Source: Devosia sp. Root413D1 | Lineage (GTDB): Bacteria > Pseudomonadota > Alphaproteobacteria > Rhizobiales > Devosiaceae | Assembly: GCF_001425235.1 (NCBI RefSeq) | Contig: NZ_LMEA01000008.1 | Location: 310,001-374,000 of the forward strand | Length of the DNA: 64,000 nt | Direction of reading: 5' to 3' | Translations under genes and position numbers: made by a program | The notes under the pieces: model-generated | Told to the model about the DNA's origin: nothing | Seen by the model: only the letters and a program-made list of their open reading frames with translations | Databases searched by the model: none | Shown: positions 10,304-19,701 of the stretch, piece by piece | How positions within the stretch are numbered: position 1 is the stretch's first letter | How the letters are laid out: the number at the start of each line of letters is the position of its first letter

Positions 10304-12943
10304 TTAACCAGCCAGCGTCCGCTCGAGGATATCGGCAGTGTTGCGGCTGAGCCCACCCGATTCCTGCAGCGATTTCAGCGCTTTCTCCGCCTCGCCGCGA
10401 CGTACGGATTCGAAGCTGCGCCATACGCGGAAGGCCGTAAGCACGCGCGCCGCGACCTGCGGGTTGCGTTTGTCGACATCCCCGACGAACTCGGCGAGGA
10501 AGCGGAAGCCCGCGCCGTCCTGGCGCGCGAACTGCGTCGGATTGTTCATGCCGAAGGTCGCCATCAACGCCCGCAGCCGGTTCGGGTTGTTCCGTGGGAA
10601 ATCCGGCGAAGCAAGGATGGCCTTGATGCGCTCGAGCGCCGCGTCGTCGGCGGCGAGCGCATTGAGCGACAGCCACTTGTCGAGCACCAGCGGGTCGGCG
10701 GTGTACTGCCGGTAGAAATCCGACAGCAGCGTATCGGCATCGGCGGTCCAAGACTGCACCACCGTCGAAAGCGCCGACAGCCGGTCGGTCATGTTGAGCG
10801 CCCGCTGATATTGCTCGCGCGCCAGCTTGTCCGCGCCCTCGGCCTTGCCGAGCACCAGGAGGGCAAGAGCGGTGTTCTTCATCGAACGCCGGCCGGTCTG
10901 CTGGAAATCGGGCGAATAGGCGAGACGGCTGTCATTGGTCAGATAGACCTTCTCCAGCGTCGGGGTGAGGCGGGCAACCAGGGCTGTCACCAGCCCGGTA
11001 CGCACTTCGTGCACGCGGTCGGGGTCGACATCGCTGCCGACCGCCCGGGCGATGGTCTGTTCGTTCGGCAGGTTCAGCGCCAGCGCCTTGTAAGCCGGGT
11101 CGAGCTCCTTGGAAGCCAGCGTCTCCTCCAACGCGTCGGCGATGGCGACGACCTGTGCGTCGCTCCATGGCCTGCCGCCGATTGCCTCGAGCATCAGCCG
11201 CATCGACACGTCCTGTAGCGCCTGCCAGCGGTTGAACGGATCGGCATCGTGACGGGCTAGGAACAGCTGGTCGGCTTCGCTGGCGCTGCTGCTCAGCTGC
11301 ACCGGCGCCGAAAAGCCGCGGAACAGCGACGGCACCGGGCGGTTGGGGATGCCGGTAAAGCTGAGGCTGAGCCTGTTGGTATCCATGACGATCAGGTCGT
11401 CGCGCACCTCGCCGCCGGACACCGAGGCCCAGCTCATCGGGCTGCCGTTCGGACCGATAAGGCCGAACTTGATCGGCAGCACCATCGGTTGCTTTTCGTC
11501 CTGGCCAGGGGTCGGCTTGTTCTCCTGCACGATATCGAGCGTATAGGTCTGCGTCGCCGCATCGAACCGGTCGGTGACGCTGACCTCGGGCGTGCCGGCC
11601 TGCAGGTACCACTGCTGGAAGTGCTGCAGGTTCTGGCCAGAAGTGTCCTCGAACACCTTGATGAAGGCCTCGATGGTGGTGGCCTCGCCGTCATGGCGCT
11701 CGAAATAGAGGTCCATCCCCTTGCGGAAGCCGGCTTCGCCGAGCAGCGTTGCCAGCATGCGGACGATCTCGGCGCCCTTCTCGTAGACGGTCGCCGTATA
11801 GAAGTTGTTGATTTCCTTGTAGCGGTCGGGCCGCGCCGGATGGGCGAGCGGGCCGCCATCCTCGGGAAACTGCGTCTGGCGCAACTGCCGCACGTCGTCG
11901 ATGCGGTTCACCGGGCGCGAGCGCTCGTCCATCGAGAACTCCTGATCGCGGTAAACCGTCAGGCCCTCCTTGAGGCAGAGCTGGAACCAGTCGCGGCAAG
12001 TGATTCTGTCGCCTGTCCAATTGTGGAAATACTCGTGCGCGATGACGCTCTCGATATTGATGTAGTCGGCGTCAGTGGCGCTCTCGGGTTTGGCGAACAC
12101 CAGCTTGTCGTTGAAGATGTTGAGCCCCTTGTTCTCCATCGCGCCGAAATTGAAATCGGAGACGGCGACGATGTTGAACACGTCGAGATCGTATTCACGG
12201 CCGAAGCGGCGCTCGTCCCAGGCCATGGAGCGCTTCAGCGAATCCATGGCGTAGAGGCACTCGCTCTCCTTGCCGTGCGCGCAGTAGATGCCGAGCGCCA
12301 CCTTGCGCCCCGAGGCGGTGGTGAACTCGTCATGGATCGAGCCGAGATCGCCCGCCACCATGGCGAAGAGGTAGGCCGGCTTCGGAAACGGATCTTCCCA
12401 CACCGCGAAATGCTTGCCGTCGGGCAGGGCGCCCTTCTCGACCAGGTTACCGTTGGAGAGCAGGATCGGCGCCAGCACCCGGTCGGCGGTCATCCGCACT
12501 TTGAACGGCGCCAGCACGTCGGGGCGGTCGAGATAATAGGTGATGCGGCGGAAGCCCTCGGGCTCGCACTGCGTACACCAGGTGCCGCTGGAGCGGTAAA
12601 ACCCCATCAGCCGGATGTTCTTTTCCGGCTCGACCGCCACTTCGGTCTCGAGCACGAAACGCTTGTTCGGCGGCTGGTGTATGGTGAGGCTGGTGGCAGT
12701 CGCCTCGTAGGCGGTGAGCGCCTGCGGCAGCCCGTCGATGGCGACAGTGCGCAGGGTCAGCTCTTCGCCATCCAGCACCAGCGGCGTGCCGGGCGCGGTG
12801 TTGGCGCGCGGCACCAGCGTCAGGAGGGCACGGATCACCGAGGTGTCGGGGGCGATCCGGACGTCCAGTTCGACCTTCTCGATGGCGTAGGGGGTCTCGG
12901 CATAATCCTTGAGGAAGACCGTCTCTTCGTTCTCGCCGCGCAT
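10304..12943 (-). CDS. pepN: Aminopeptidase N
   Basis: The 879-residue M1-family metallopeptidase carries the substrate-recognition motif GAMEN (in FNFGAMENKG) and the zinc motif HEYFH at residues 303-307, with the third ligand Glu 19 residues further on in LKEGLTVY. Length and the C-terminal helical domain match the PepN type of proteobacteria (about 870-885). It removes N-terminal amino acids from peptides in the cytoplasm. The ATG at 12943 is preceded by GGAG at 6 bases. The gene stands alone on the minus strand and is divergent from the ABC-exporter cluster. Confidence 0.97.
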   Translation of the reverse strand: MRGENEETVFLKDYAETPYAIEKVELDVRIAPDTSVIRALLTLVPRANTAPGTPLVLDGEELTLRTVAIDGLPQALTAYEATATSLTIHQPPNKRFVLETEVAVEPEKNIRLMGFYRSSGTWCTQCEPEGFRRITYYLDRPDVLAPFKVRMTADRVLAPILLSNGNLVEKGALPDGKHFAVWEDPFPKPAYLFAMVAGDLGSIHDEFTTASGRKVALGIYCAHGKESECLYAMDSLKRSMAWDERRFGREYDLDVFNIVAVSDFNFGAMENKGLNIFNDKLVFAKPESATDADYINIESVIAHEYFHNWTGDRITCRDWFQLCLKEGLTVYRDQEFSMDERSRPVNRIDDVRQLRQTQFPEDGGPLAHPARPDRYKEINNFYTATVYEKGAEIVRMLATLLGEAGFRKGMDLYFERHDGEATTIEAFIKVFEDTSGQNLQHFQQWYLQAGTPEVSVTDRFDAATQTYTLDIVQENKPTPGQDEKQPMVLPIKFGLIGPNGSPMSWASVSGGEVRDDLIVMDTNRLSLSFTGIPNRPVPSLFRGFSAPVQLSSSASEADQLFLARHDADPFNRWQALQDVSMRLMLEAIGGRPWSDAQVVAIADALEETLASKELDPAYKALALNLPNEQTIARAVGSDVDPDRVHEVRTGLVTALVARLTPTLEKVYLTNDSRLAYSPDFQQTGRRSMKNTALALLVLGKAEGADKLAREQYQRALNMTDRLSALSTVVQSWTADADTLLSDFYRQYTADPLVLDKWLSLNALAADDAALERIKAILASPDFPRNNPNRLRALMATFGMNNPTQFARQDGAGFRFLAEFVGDVDKRNPQVAARVLTAFRVWRSFESVRRGEAEKALKSLQESGGLSRNTADILERTLAG

Positions 12944-13254
12944 TAAATTCTCCGCAACATCAACTCGTTAACCAACTGTGGCGCAGGAGCAACAGCCGAA
13001 TCCCATGGTTAGTGTATTCTGTGCGGCTGACAACCAGCCAATTTGGACACGATCCTTGCCGATTCCGGCGGTAATGGGATTGGCGCCTGGCTGGCCCGCC
13101 AGCACGCACCTCCGTCACGCTATTGGCGTGGCGTGTGCGTAATCCAAAATACAGAAGAGGGCAAAGCCCTCGGATGGCAAGAGCCGCTTGACCTCAACCT
13201 ATGTTGAGGTCGTAGCCGTGCCGCCATCCTGACGATGGGACGAGGGAGACGGCC
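12944..13254. other. 311-base intergenic region between pepN and the ABC exporter cluster
   Basis: No gene is seen. The pepN-proximal half has no obvious motif. A GAGGGC-AAA-GCCCTC hairpin lies at 13157-13171. A MerR-type promoter palindrome is at 13188-13218, and a purine-rich ribosome site (GAGGGAGA) precedes the GTG start at 13255. The region must hold the divergent promoters of pepN and the exporter cluster. Confidence 0.7.
13188..13218 (+). promoter_or_regulatory. MerR/SoxR-like promoter with palindromic operator
   Basis: A -35 like TTGACC (13188-13193) overlaps a perfect palindrome: GACCTCAAC (13190-13198), spacer CTAT, then its exact complement (13203-13211). A weak -10 (TAGCCG, 13213-13218) would give a 19-base spacer. 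MerR-family activators such as SoxR use exactly this layout, a dyad inside an over-long spacer starting at the -35, and the CCTCAA half-site resembles known SoxR boxes. It lies 37 bases upstream of the first ABC exporter. No merR/soxR gene is in the window, so the regulator would be encoded elsewhere. Confidence 0.65.
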
Positions 13255-15117
13255 GTGTTCGACAGAGTGTTCAAGTGGTTCGAGGATCGGCTCAACCCCT
13301 ATCCGCTCGGTGAGCCGCAGCAGCCGCCCAAGGGGCTGGTGGCGTTCTGCCTGCACTACTGCAAGGGCGCCAAGCGCTGGCTGATCGCGATGGCGGTGCT
13401 GGGCGCGTGCATCGCACTGGGCGAGATTCTGCTGTTCAGCTTCATGGGCTCGATCATCGATTGGCTCGGCACGGCGGACCGCGCCACGTTCTTACAGACT
13501 GAAGGCTGGAAGCTCATCCTGATGGCGGTGGTCCTGCTCGCCATCCTGCCGTCATTGCAGATCTTCGACACGCTGATCATCCACCAGACGCTGATCGGTA
13601 ACCTGCCGCAGCGCATCCGCTGGATGGCGCATCGCTACCTGCTGCGCCAGTCGATGAGCTATTTCCAGGACGAGTTCGCCGGCCGCATCGGCGCCAAGCT
13701 GATGCAGACCTCGCTGGCCGTGCGCGAAGTGGTGATGAAGCTGCTCGACGTGACGGTGTTCGTGGTCGTCTACTTCGCCGGCGCCGTGGTGCTGGCGGCG
13801 ATGAGCGACCTGTGGCTGGCCGTGCCGTTCCTGGTGTGGCTCGCCATCTACGTTTCGCTGCTCTGCTACTATGTGCCCAAGCTTGGCAAGGTCGCCGAGG
13901 CGCAGGCCGACGCGCGCTCGCTGATGACTGGGCGCATCGTCGACAGCTACACCAATATCGCGACAGTAAAGCTGTTCTCGCATTCGCACCGCGAGGAAGC
14001 CTACGCGCACGAGGCCATGGATCAGTTCATGGGCACCGTGCACAAGCAGATGCGGATGTTCGCCCTCTTACAGATCGTCATCCCGCTGATGAACAACCTG
14101 CTGCTGTTCGCGGTCATGGCGGTCGGCATCAACCAGTGGCTCAACGGTTCGATGACCCCTGGGGCGATTGCCGTCGCCACGGCGCTGGTACTGCGCTTCC
14201 AGGGCATGAGCCAGTGGGTGATGTGGGAGATGTCGCAGCTGTTCGAAAATATCGGCATCGTCCGCGACGGCATCAACTCGATCTCGCTGCCGCGCGTCGT
14301 CGCCGATCAGCCCGGCGCCAAGCCGATCGGCCCGGTGAAGGGCGACGTGCGCTTCGACGATGTCGGGTTCCACTACGGCAAGGCGTCCGGCGTCATCGAC
14401 CATCTCGAGCTCGCCATCAAGCCGGGTGAGAAGATCGGTCTCGTCGGCCGCTCCGGCGCCGGCAAATCGACCATCGTCAACCTGCTGCTGCGCTTCTACG
14501 ACCGCGAGAGCGGCAGGATCACCATCGACGGCATCGACATCGCCACCGTGCAGCAGGATACGCTGCGCGAGCAGATTGGCGTGGTGACGCAGGATACCTC
14601 GCTCCTGCATCGCTCGGTGCGCGAGAACATCCTCTATGGCCGTCCCGACGCGACCGAGGCGGAGATGCTTGCCGCCGCCCGCCTCGCCGAAGCCGACGTG
14701 TTCATCGACGGGCTGGTCGATTTCAAGGGCCGCAAGGGCTACGACGCCCATGTCGGCGAGCGTGGCGTGAAGCTCTCGGGCGGCCAGCGGCAGCGCATCG
14801 CCATCGCCCGGGTGCTGCTCAAGAACGCGCCGATCCTGGTGCTCGACGAAGCCACCTCGGCCCTCGACAGCGAGGTCGAGGCGGCGATCCAGGGCCAGTT
14901 GCAGCTCCTGATGCAGAACAAGACGGTGATCGCCATCGCGCACCGGCTCTCGACCATCGCCATGATGGACCGCCTCGTGGTGCTGGAGCAGGGCAAGATC
15001 GTCGAGCAGGGCACCCATGCCGAGCTGATCACGCTGGGCGGAGTCTACGCCAAGCTCTGGGCCCGCCAGTCCGGCGGGTTCCTCGAGATGGACGTACAGG
15101 AGGAGGCGGCCGAGTAG
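13255..15117 (+). CDS. ABC exporter half-transporter (TMD-NBD), first of three
   Basis: The 620-residue protein has a six-helix exporter domain (about 30-330) fused to an ATPase. Walker A GRSGAGKST is near 398, the signature LSGGQRQRIAIARVLL near 507, Walker B ILVLDEATSALDS follows, and the switch His is in AHRLSTI. Before the first helix it has a short amphipathic segment with W, F and R (FKWFEDRLNP) followed by QPP, also seen in its two paralogues at 15305 and 17833. Such half-transporters dimerise, as homodimers or in pairs. The start is GTG with GAGGGAGA upstream. The MerR-like box in its promoter hints at drug- or redox-induced export. The substrate is unknown. Confidence 0.93.
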   Translation: MFDRVFKWFEDRLNPYPLGEPQQPPKGLVAFCLHYCKGAKRWLIAMAVLGACIALGEILLFSFMGSIIDWLGTADRATFLQTEGWKLILMAVVLLAILPSLQIFDTLIIHQTLIGNLPQRIRWMAHRYLLRQSMSYFQDEFAGRIGAKLMQTSLAVREVVMKLLDVTVFVVVYFAGAVVLAAMSDLWLAVPFLVWLAIYVSLLCYYVPKLGKVAEAQADARSLMTGRIVDSYTNIATVKLFSHSHREEAYAHEAMDQFMGTVHKQMRMFALLQIVIPLMNNLLLFAVMAVGINQWLNGSMTPGAIAVATALVLRFQGMSQWVMWEMSQLFENIGIVRDGINSISLPRVVADQPGAKPIGPVKGDVRFDDVGFHYGKASGVIDHLELAIKPGEKIGLVGRSGAGKSTIVNLLLRFYDRESGRITIDGIDIATVQQDTLREQIGVVTQDTSLLHRSVRENILYGRPDATEAEMLAAARLAEADVFIDGLVDFKGRKGYDAHVGERGVKLSGGQRQRIAIARVLLKNAPILVLDEATSALDSEVEAAIQGQLQLLMQNKTVIAIAHRLSTIAMMDRLVVLEQGKIVEQGTHAELITLGGVYAKLWARQSGGFLEMDVQEEAAE

Positions 15118-15162
15118 GCCGCCTCGCAACACATAATTTCAACCACCCCAAGGAGGGGACAA

Positions 15163-15264
15163 ATGGAAACTCGCAATCAACCCGGATTCATCGACCTCAG
15201 CGCGGGCCCCAACGCCAGCCGGTCCAAAGTGAAGCGAAAACAATCCGTTAGAGCCCTGACCTGA
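15163..15264 (+). CDS. Predicted 33-residue small protein between two ABC exporters
   Basis: ATG at 15163 is followed by 33 sense codons and TGA at 15262-15264. Seven bases upstream is AAGGAGGGG, an almost perfect ribosome binding site and stronger than that of either neighbouring exporter. The peptide is hydrophilic, opens METRNQPGFIDLSAGP and ends in a basic tail (KVKRKQSVRALT). It has no Cys, no signal peptide and no membrane helix. It lies 45 bases after the first exporter and 40 bases before the second, so it is presumably in one transcript with them. It could be an exported peptide, a regulator or a leader ORF controlling the next gene. No family is recognised. Confidence 0.6.
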   Translation: METRNQPGFIDLSAGPNASRSKVKRKQSVRALT

Positions 15265-15304
15265 CTCGGATAGTCAGTTACCGGGCTCGGAAAATGAGTT
15301 CAAA

Positions 15305-17173
15305 ATGCTCAACCGAGTCATTGCCTGGTTCGATGCCCGCTACTCTCCGGTAGCGCTGGCCAAGGACACCCAGCCCCCGATGGGGGTTACCAAGTTCACC
15401 ATGTATTTCGTCAACCAGTTCCGCGGCGCGTTCCTGCTCCGCATGGTGCTGGTGGCCATCGGCTCGATTGCCGATGCGATGATGCCGGTCTTCGTCGGCG
15501 TCGTCGTCGGCCTGCTCGCCACGACCCCGCCGGGGCAGATGTTCGAGCTGCACTGGCAGACCTTCCTCTGGATGATCCTGGTGATCGCCGTGATCCGGCC
15601 GATCACCTTCCTGCTCGATACGCTGGTGCGTAACCACGCGATCGTGCCCAACCTCGTCGACATTGTCCGCTGGCAGAGCCATTGGCACGTCATCCGGCAG
15701 ACCTGGAGCTATTTCCAGAACGACTTCGCCGGGCGCATCGCCAACAAGATCATGCAGGCCGGGGAATCGATCGAAACCTCGGTCAACATGACCATCGATG
15801 CCGTCTGGTACGCCGGCATCTTCGTCATCGTGGCGGTGGTCGTGCTGGCCCGGCTCGATTGGGTGCTACTGGTGCCGATTGCCGTCTGGCTGGTGCTCTA
15901 CGGCATCCTGTTCACCATCGTCATGCCGCTGATCGCCAAGCATTCCGAGGATCTCTCGGAGGCCAAGTCCGTGATGACCGGCCGCGTCGTCGACAGCTAC
16001 ACCAACATCCACACGCTGAAGACGTTCTCGACCGACGGTCACGAGGATGCCTATGTGGCGGACTCGGTGAACGAGCACGCGGTGGAGTTCCGCAAACTCA
16101 TGCGGGTGTTCACCTACATGTGGTCGACGCTGTTCCTGCTCAACGCCGGCCTCGTGATCTCGATCGCCTGGATCGCGCTCAGCAGCTGGAACGCCGGAAC
16201 GCTGAACGCCGCCGCAGTGGCGACGGCCATTCCGTTCGCGTTGCAGATCATGAACATGAGTGGCTGGATCCTCGATGTCGGCTCCAACATCTTCCGTCAG
16301 ATCGGCACCACGCGGGATTCGATGATCACCATCGCCCAGCCGATCACCATGCTCGACAAGCCTGAGGCCAAGCACCTGGTGGTGAAGGAAGGCGGCATCG
16401 CCTTCGACAACGTCACCTTCAACTACTGGCGCGGCAAGGAAGGCACTGTGATGGAGGGGTTCAACCTCACCATCAAGCCGGGCGAGAAGGTGGGTCTGGT
16501 CGGTCGTTCCGGCGCCGGCAAGTCGACGCTGGTCAACCTGATGCTGCGTCTGTTCGACGTGGAGTCCGGTTCGATCCGCATCGATGGGCAGGACGTTCGC
16601 GACGTCACGCAGGAAAGCGTGCGCGCCGCGATTGGCCTGGTCAGCCAGGACACCTCGCTGCTGCACCGTTCGGTGCGCGAGAACATCAAGTACGGCCGCC
16701 AGACCGCGACCGACGAGGAGATGATCCGCGCTGCCGAGCACGCCAAGGTGGCCGACGTGATTGCCGGGCTGATGGACCCCAAGGAACGACGGGGCTACGA
16801 CGCCCATGTCGGCGAACGGGGCGTCAAGCTCTCGGGTGGGCAGCGCCAGCGCGTCGCCATTGCCCGGGTGCTGCTGAAGAACGCCCCGATCCTGGTGCTC
16901 GACGAGGCGACCTCGGCGCTCGACAGCGAGGTCGAGGCGGCGATCCAGGAACAGCTGGTGTCGCTGATGCAGGGAAAGACCGTTATCGCCATCGCCCACC
17001 GCCTCTCGACCATCGCCGCGATGGACCGGCTGGTGGTGCTCGAAAAGGGGCAGATCGTCGAAGAGGGCACCCATGCCGAGCTGCTCGCCGGCGGTGGGCA
17101 CTATGCCCAGCTCTGGGAGCGCCAGTCCGGCGGGTTCCTCGACATGAAAGCCGAGGCAGAAGCCGCGGAGTAA
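15305..17173 (+). CDS. ABC exporter half-transporter (TMD-NBD), second of three
   Basis: The 622-residue protein has the same build as the gene at 13255: an amphipathic N-terminal segment (IAWFDARYSP, then QPP), six membrane helices to about residue 330, and an ATPase with GRSGAGKST, LSGGQRQRVAIARVLL, ILVLDEATSALDS and AHRLSTI. All catalytic residues look intact, so ATP hydrolysis should not be asymmetric as in degenerate-site heterodimers. Its ATG follows the small ORF by 40 bases and has only a weak ribosome site, which could mean translational coupling or control. A hairpin terminator follows 5 bases after the stop. Confidence 0.93.
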   Translation: MLNRVIAWFDARYSPVALAKDTQPPMGVTKFTMYFVNQFRGAFLLRMVLVAIGSIADAMMPVFVGVVVGLLATTPPGQMFELHWQTFLWMILVIAVIRPITFLLDTLVRNHAIVPNLVDIVRWQSHWHVIRQTWSYFQNDFAGRIANKIMQAGESIETSVNMTIDAVWYAGIFVIVAVVVLARLDWVLLVPIAVWLVLYGILFTIVMPLIAKHSEDLSEAKSVMTGRVVDSYTNIHTLKTFSTDGHEDAYVADSVNEHAVEFRKLMRVFTYMWSTLFLLNAGLVISIAWIALSSWNAGTLNAAAVATAIPFALQIMNMSGWILDVGSNIFRQIGTTRDSMITIAQPITMLDKPEAKHLVVKEGGIAFDNVTFNYWRGKEGTVMEGFNLTIKPGEKVGLVGRSGAGKSTLVNLMLRLFDVESGSIRIDGQDVRDVTQESVRAAIGLVSQDTSLLHRSVRENIKYGRQTATDEEMIRAAEHAKVADVIAGLMDPKERRGYDAHVGERGVKLSGGQRQRVAIARVLLKNAPILVLDEATSALDSEVEAAIQEQLVSLMQGKTVIAIAHRLSTIAAMDRLVVLEKGQIVEEGTHAELLAGGGHYAQLWERQSGGFLDMKAEAEAAE

Positions 17174-17298: not shown

Positions 17299-17712
17299 AT
17301 GAGCGCTACCGATGAGGGTCGAGCGTCTATTGTTAAGGGGCAGAAGAGCGAAGCTGCTGTGCAAGGCTCGGTATATGCTGCCGGCGTCAGCGCAGAGACC
17401 GTCGGAGCGAGATCTCTGTTCCTGGGCGTCGTGACACTGCCGCCCGGCAAACGCACGAAGGCTCACGTGCATGAGTTCCACGAAACGGCGATGTACATGC
17501 TGTCCGGCGAGGCGGTGGACATGTACTCGGGTCCCAATCTCGAACACCATGAGCAGCTCAACATTGGCGACTACGTCTATATCCCCGCCAACGTTCTGCA
17601 TGTCGCCGTCAATCGCAGCTCGACGCCCGCCGTTTTCGTCGGATCCCGCAACGAGGCGACCGTGAACGAGAGCGTGGTCCTGTTCCCCGAGATGGATGGA
17701 GTCGTTCCCTAG
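17299..17712 (+). CDS. Cupin-domain protein
   Basis: The 137-residue single-domain cupin has its first motif near 55-75 (HVHEFHETAMYMLSG) and its second near 90-105 (GDYVYIPANVLHVAVN). The His/Glu/His pattern could hold a metal ion. Stand-alone cupins of this type can be sugar or amino-acid enzymes, dioxygenases or binding proteins, and no reaction can be assigned. GGGAG lies 6 bases before the ATG. It sits between the second and third ABC exporters behind a terminator, so its link with transport is positional only. Confidence 0.85.
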   Translation: MSATDEGRASIVKGQKSEAAVQGSVYAAGVSAETVGARSLFLGVVTLPPGKRTKAHVHEFHETAMYMLSGEAVDMYSGPNLEHHEQLNIGDYVYIPANVLHVAVNRSSTPAVFVGSRNEATVNESVVLFPEMDGVVP

Positions 17713-17832
17713 GCCCGTCCTTCACGATGGCGGCAATTTTCGTTCACGCGAAAACCCTCGAGAACACCCTTTCCGCGATTTCACGTTCCCTTCGTTAGGA
17801 CTCAAGCTATTGAGTGTTCAACGAGAACACCC
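17713..17832. promoter_or_regulatory. Intergenic region with an 11-base direct repeat before the third exporter
   Basis: CGAGAACACCC occurs at 17759-17769 and again at 17822-17832, directly abutting the ATG of the third exporter. The second copy lies where the ribosome site should be, and no AGGAGG-like sequence is present. The repeats may be regulator half-sites or chance. Confidence 0.35.

Positions 17833-19701
<1,869 letters not shown>

Follow-up and report, generated by a model that had tools for sequence, protein, structure and literature searches.

The small open reading frame (ORF) that separates two ABC exporter genes in the window, the 64,000-nucleotide stretch of Devosia sp. Root413D1 DNA analysed here, most probably exerts leader-ORF control over the translation of the downstream exporter gene, ABC2. 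More specifically, we consider it likely to be a cis-acting leader ORF, a translational attenuator of ABC2 located inside the operon. The sequences and the computed energies reveal a conserved ORF, ribosome site, stop-codon position and C-terminus, as well as two rival RNA pairings; from these we infer translation, pausing, the direction of the switch and a signal. The functional tie to the exporters proposed in the initial annotation is well supported, but is more exactly a tie to ABC2, the gap being steadier on that side. Of the three roles that it left open (exported peptide, subunit or leader ORF), the last is favoured because the peptide body is variable, the C-terminus is kept, the stop codon lies in a predicted competing stem and protein-level selection is weak; the other two are disfavoured.

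The genes of the locus follow one another on the + strand in the order ABC1 (13255-15117), small ORF (15163-15264), ABC2 (15305-17173), cupin gene (17299-17712) and ABC3 (17833-19701). ABC1, which begins with GTG, was identified as an ABCB/MsbA-type half exporter by Pfam (PF00664 and PF00005) and NCBIfam (below curated cut-offs). ABC2, the exporter accompanied by the leader, begins with ATG at 15305 and was assigned to the same type by Pfam and NCBIfam, its closest named record being from Devosia insulae DS-56 (99%). ABC3, behind the cupin gene, is a third half exporter according to Pfam and NCBIfam. The small ORF runs, as initially annotated, from an ATG at 15163 through 33 sense codons to a TGA at 15262-15264, leaving 45 bases to ABC1 (stop ending at 15117) and 40 bases to the ABC2 ATG. 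The AGGAG core of its ribosome-binding site ends 7 bases before the ATG, the spacing first reported, and the full site AAGGAGGGG (15150-15158, + strand) ends 4 bases before it. Duplex energies with the 16S tail were -11.7 kcal/mol for the leader, -9.0 for ABC1, -3.5 for ABC2 and -3.0 for ABC3, so the claim that the leader site is better than those of both flanking exporters holds. The leader site also exceeded the ABC2 site in 63/63 genomes, in which leaders had been chosen for having a site.

Other structures were observed in the same locus. A perfect hairpin, GACCTCAAC/GTTGAGGTC, occupies 13190-13211, 43 bases before the ABC1 GTG, and a GAGGGC/GCCCTC hairpin lies at 13157-13171, also ahead of ABC1, which may thus possess a structured leader of its own. 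A GTGTTC/GAACAC hairpin at 17814-17830 ends two bases before the ABC3 ATG and overlaps the weak ABC3 ribosome site. A promoter scan of 12900-15400 returned none, which says little since shuffled sequences average only 0.4.

Conservation was assessed in Devosiaceae. With a cut-off of E <= 1e-200, 70 of 136 family genomes proved to contain ABC2, and the upstream region was read in 69 of them, ABC2 being cut by a contig end in the remaining one (G001). In 63 of these 69 regions, ABC2 is preceded at 34-106 bases by an ORF that has 22-34 codons and a strong ribosome site, while only 37 of 4140 dinucleotide-shuffled versions passed the same filter. A 64th leader was recovered in G001, on another contig, with an RNA model. 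The conservation of frame, start and ribosome site beside the exporters, on which the initial annotation had staked its proposal, was thereby confirmed, and by this comparison the small ORF is real and conserved. Searched by sequence, the peptide was detected in 9 of the 19 genomes of the window's genus; a tenth match, in G015 (L010, E 0.61), sits among other genes and was rejected as chance.

The leader ends with TGA in 62 of 63 genomes and with TAG in G109. Its distance to ABC2 is 34-54 bases in 58 of the 63 and 79, 81, 103, 103 and 106 bases in the other five. On the other side, its distance to the ABC1 end, visible in 62 genomes, spans 29-547 bases. In eight genomes (G005, G116, G117, G107, G008, G000, G002 and G109) the latter distance is only 29-45 bases, and ABC1 and the leader are therefore likely to share one transcript. 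In several genomes (L004, L003, L007, L018), the interval from ABC1 to the leader includes palindrome-like sequence, about 200 bases long. The six upstream regions without a leader belong to G108 and G110-G114. In G108 (L105) a similar start and ribosome site are followed by a frame that continues into ABC2 with no usual stop, either a natural variant or an assembly error. G110-G114, all of one genus, have ABC2 but neither a leader nor an ABC1 end in the 260 bases inspected.

The RNA model of the leader end (R1) gave matches in 68 of 136 genomes, 62 of them at ABC2 starts. Matches elsewhere, together with some second matches, were weak and chance-like on reading: 14 of the 15 matches away from ABC2 starts were read (all except that in G113) and lay in, across or between other frames, with no such leader. 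R1 failed to detect two known leaders, G008 and G109, so its silence where no close ABC2 exists is no proof of absence. Sixteen genomes that lacked a close ABC2 or gave doubtful matches were searched once more, and 15 have exporters 41-56% identical to ABC2; in G019 and G120, whose tandem exporters are not close to ABC2, the gap between these genes was read and contains no comparable ORF with the predicted stem described below. An ABC2 relative at E <= 1e-190 occurs in 60 of 397 genomes of the order, of which 50 lie outside the family, and no such leader was seen in the 20 of these 50 upstream regions that were read, four of which precede an ABC2 with 65-66% identity. As far as we looked, the leader appears to be a Devosiaceae trait.

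The peptide of the window, METRNQPGFIDLSAGPNASRSKVKRKQSVRALT, has no match in Pfam or NCBIfam, in agreement with the initial statement that no known peptide family fits. Comparison of the unique coding sequences (14 in the window's genus, hereafter g1; 41 in the main Devosia group, g5; 59 overall) revealed a body that varies in length (22-34 aa) and sequence between two conserved ends. The N-terminus is MGD in 39/41 g5 sequences and M[ED][ST] in 13/14 g1 sequences. The C-terminus, whose basic character had been noted from the start, reads KRKxxxRxxT-stop in the window (15232-15264, + strand), with codons that are rare by the codon table (CGA, AAA, CAA, AGA). The termini KRKQSxRALT, KRKPMDRFRT and KRKQYxKAxP have KRKxxx[RK]xx[TPS]-stop in common, KRK being only partly retained in many g5 members. 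A codon score as low as that of the last 13 codons, or lower, occurred in 3.1% of 1824 stretches from 32 long ORFs of the window; for the whole leader ORF this proportion was 7.9%.

The residue four positions before the stop is Arg in 54 of the 59 unique sequences, Lys in 3, Val in 1 and Leu in 1. As the aligned Arg is spelled by four codons in the 41 g5 sequences (CGA 23, CGT 13, CGG 3, AGG 2), the residue itself is kept and seems to be under selection in g5. For the last Arg, all g5 sequences use CGA, a constancy that the stem would impose; the aligned codon preceding it has a final C in 40/41 sequences, and the stem can explain this too. Pooled pN/pS was 0.60 in g1 (24 pairs) and 0.73 in g5 (181 pairs), or 0.67 in g5 without the last four codons; these values, uncorrected and from overlapping pairs, point to weak purifying selection on the peptide. 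Two further origins of the ORF were rejected. A decayed end of the ABC1 gene (RQSGGFLE versus NQPGFIDL, by eye) was discarded, given that the ORF possesses a ribosome site of its own and that its conserved C-terminus is a different one. A frame-shifted N-terminal extension of ABC2 is at odds with the stop-to-start gaps, which are spread over all three frames (16, 25 and 22 of 63).

The stop codon lies within a predicted stem, P1 (15251-15288, + strand). Its outer part pairs GAGCCC (15251-15256) with GGGCTC (15283-15288), and its inner part pairs CTGACT (15261-15266), which contains the stop codon, with AGTCAG (15272-15277). None of 200 shuffles was as strong for G000, and the mean pairing in free RNA is 0.72. 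At most 10 of 200 spacer shuffles were as strong in 53 of 60 distinct sequences, and at most 2 in 44; P1 was not significant in the other 7, the worst being G109 (87/200). The predicted helix spans the stop codon in 59/60 distinct sequences, with letters that vary by group (GAGCCC/GGGCTC, GAACCC/GGGTTC, CCTGAC/GTCAGG). Inserts were observed around it: a palindrome-like sequence, REP-like by eye, in the P1 loop of G063, G076 and G093 (L082, L083, L044), with both arms intact, and a GC-rich hairpin-like sequence between the P1 3′ arm and the ABC2 ribosome site of G039 and G049 (L045, L104). Rfam gave no match overlapping 15163-15330 at E up to 10.

A rival helix (15286-15317, + strand) would pair CTCGG (15286-15290) with CCGAG (15313-15317) in ABC2 codons 3-5, enclosing a hairpin TGAGT (15295-15299)/GCTCA (15307-15311). 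In g5, the outer part of P1 joins CCG of the leader to a CGG that, as part of CGCGG, is also able to pair with CCGCG in ABC2 codons 3-5. Two alignments were examined: A1, with 39 distinct g5 and g10 sequences (the five long-gap genomes left out), and A2, with 13 distinct g1 sequences; G109, G116 and G117 are in neither. CGCGG/CCGCG is present in 39/39 rows of A1, one of them with a G-U pair, and ABC2 codons 3-5 read AACCGCGTC, synonymous sites included, in 38/39. The counterpart CTCGG/CCGAG occurs in 8/13 rows of A2, its joint change relative to g5 counting as one event, and the five other rows have a GGTTCTCA/TGAGAG-like hairpin over the ABC2 site.

Covariation in A1 was slight: one pair, adjoining the stop, has both partners altered in 4 sequences; at least as many such pairs occurred in 424 of 500 shuffles, and 11 of 500 reached the score. 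On A1, RNAalifold accommodated the P1 core next to the start-site helix in one structure, so that exclusion of the rival is limited to the outer P1 pairs. With shorter flanks, the minimum fold of G000 contained the start-site helix and, of P1, the inner part only. On A2, RNAalifold did not choose outer P1 and preferred other pairs, namely leader GAGC with GCTC in ABC2 codon 2, where one pair has both sides changed in 4/13 sequences; this may be a third pairing in g1.

The effect of a ribosome at the leader stop was computed, by equilibrium folding throughout, as the energy to open the ABC2 ribosome site and start, in the free RNA and in RNA with a 28-base block around the leader stop; in the control, the leader end and the spacer were shuffled. 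Blocking raised the mean opening cost by 2.59 kcal/mol in g1 (n=15; shuffled +0.14) and by 0.80 kcal/mol in g5 (n=43; shuffled -0.04). The rise exceeded that of the sequence's own shuffles in 14/15 g1 and 37/43 g5 sequences. It was larger than 0.5 kcal/mol in 13/15 and 24/43, and the cost went down in 0 and 1, respectively. Individual genomes departed from this pattern, the ABC2 start becoming easier to open in G117 (group g14; 7.17 to 4.49) and in G093 (by 1.45); G116 was unchanged, and the cost rose in G107 and G109. A block over the leader ribosome site had no such effect (means 6.78 in g1 and 6.01 in g5, versus 6.88 and 6.30 free). A block about eight codons before the stop gave 8.02 and 6.47 versus the same free values; in g1, opening thus becomes costlier with a ribosome paused at KRK as well (6.88 to 8.02), and such an early pause would leave ABC2 incompletely opened in that group.

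Pairing probabilities changed in the same calculations. In the window, pairing between ABC2 codons 3-5 and the spacer went from 0.11 free to 0.98 with the leader end blocked; the means went from 0.25 to 0.56 in g1 and from 0.27 to 0.53 in g5. The gain of the start helix exceeded 0.1 in 9/15 g1 and 29/43 g5 sequences, and its pairing fell in none of g1 and in 7/43 of g5. For the ABC2 start, the mean unpaired fraction stayed nearly constant (0.52 to 0.50 in g1, 0.56 to 0.56 in g5). The calculations thus predict that a ribosome at the leader stop shifts the RNA towards the start-site helix and increases the cost of opening ABC2, though not uniformly.

These features suggest a mechanism in which the translated end of the leader and its stop codon would form one arm of P1. 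With the leader untranslated, or with a ribosome paused well before the last codons, P1 would form and sequester its 3′ arm, GGGCTC in the window and GTCAGG plus CGG in the main Devosia group. A ribosome on the leader stop would block P1, and the freed bases could then pair with ABC2 codons 3-5, creating a start-site helix around the weak ABC2 ribosome site and lowering ABC2 translation. The KRKxxxRxxT C-terminus with its rare codons would set the length of the ribosome pause. A bolder version, which we regard as doubtful, would make KRKxxxRxxT-stop a new nascent-chain arrest motif, responding to a drug or metabolite that is sensed by the leader peptide in the ribosome tunnel and removed by the exporter pair, and setting the ABC2/ABC1 ratio inside a single operon via the stop-codon switch.

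Plain translational coupling, in which ribosomes recruited by the leader terminate 34-54 bases short of ABC2 and reinitiate at that gene, P1 joining stop and start with no sensing, is a possible if on balance improbable account. It would draw on the very strong leader site, the weak ABC2 site and the short stop-to-start gap in 58/63 genomes, but it has no need of a conserved C-terminal motif, and in the five genomes with gaps of 79-106 bases the P1 helix is still predicted (significant in 3/5). An action of the peptide in trans, or as a small exporter subunit, seems unlikely: the peptide constantly accompanies ABC2 and has a basic, conserved C-terminus, yet P1 can account for part of that C-terminal conservation, the body varies in length (22-34 aa) and sequence with the pN/pS values of 0.60 and 0.73, and the window's peptide matches no Pfam or NCBIfam family.

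The low protein-level selection could be read as that of a chance ORF over a purely RNA element, which we hold to be very unlikely given that start, ribosome site and frame are kept in 64 genomes and the Arg near the end is kept through four codons. An exported substrate, that is, a bacteriocin- or RiPP-like precursor, would suit an ORF placed between two exporter genes, and is nevertheless extremely improbable. What is conserved is the C-terminus, not a long N-terminal leader, and a predicted RNA stem includes the stop codon. The window's peptide has no Cys, as initially annotated (some relatives have Cys), and no double-Gly site, and the exporters have no peptidase domain match in Pfam; for want of a double-Gly site and of a peptidase-bearing exporter, the RiPP/bacteriocin precursor class was rejected.

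If true, control of ABC2 by the small ORF would be a leader-peptide switch of an ABC exporter pair in Alphaproteobacteria, intra-operon and acting on translation. Some 60 natural variants are at hand for direct tests of the rival pairings and of the conserved C-terminus, and whatever alters the leader switch would point to what the exporters carry.

Among open-licence PMC papers, judged by title and start of abstract, no description of the Devosia leader was found. An attenuator of amino-acid biosynthesis was rejected, there being no single-residue run in the alignments, no terminator and an exporter gene downstream. In translational attenuators of the erm/cat type, a ribosome stalled on the leader ORF by a ligand determines which helices form, and with them whether the following start site is masked or exposed. 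A paper on MsrD (PMC10314930) is placed with this type. The Devosia leader may work in a similar way: rival pairings are predicted, with an energy shift above shuffles, alongside an unchanged unpaired fraction, a P1 core that can coexist with the start helix and slight covariation. It differs in being predicted to block when the ribosome is at the stop. A report on Sinorhizobium meliloti (PMC7298713) describes peTrpL as the leader peptide of a transcription attenuator that acts in trans. It resembles the present case as an alphaproteobacterial leader peptide linked to multidrug efflux genes, whereas the Devosia leader is proposed to act in cis.

BmrB (PMC4191407) is a translated leader peptide of the Bacillus subtilis multidrug ABC exporter BmrC/BmrD and works at the operon head via an intrinsic terminator inside its frame. 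The Devosia leader, by contrast, sits between two exporter genes and shows no terminator pattern on the + strand: no terminator-like site was found on that strand in 12900-15400, and T runs of at least 4 occur in 6/63 leader-ABC2 spacers. As the terminator that defines BmrB was not found at the Devosia leader, we do not place it in the BmrB type. The two share a small ORF and alternative stem-loops, predicted in the Devosia case, just before ABC exporter genes, as well as rare codons in the leader (PMC4191407), and the Devosia ORF, with its own ribosome site, directly precedes an ABC exporter gene. BmrB before bmrCD is the nearest known arrangement that we found.
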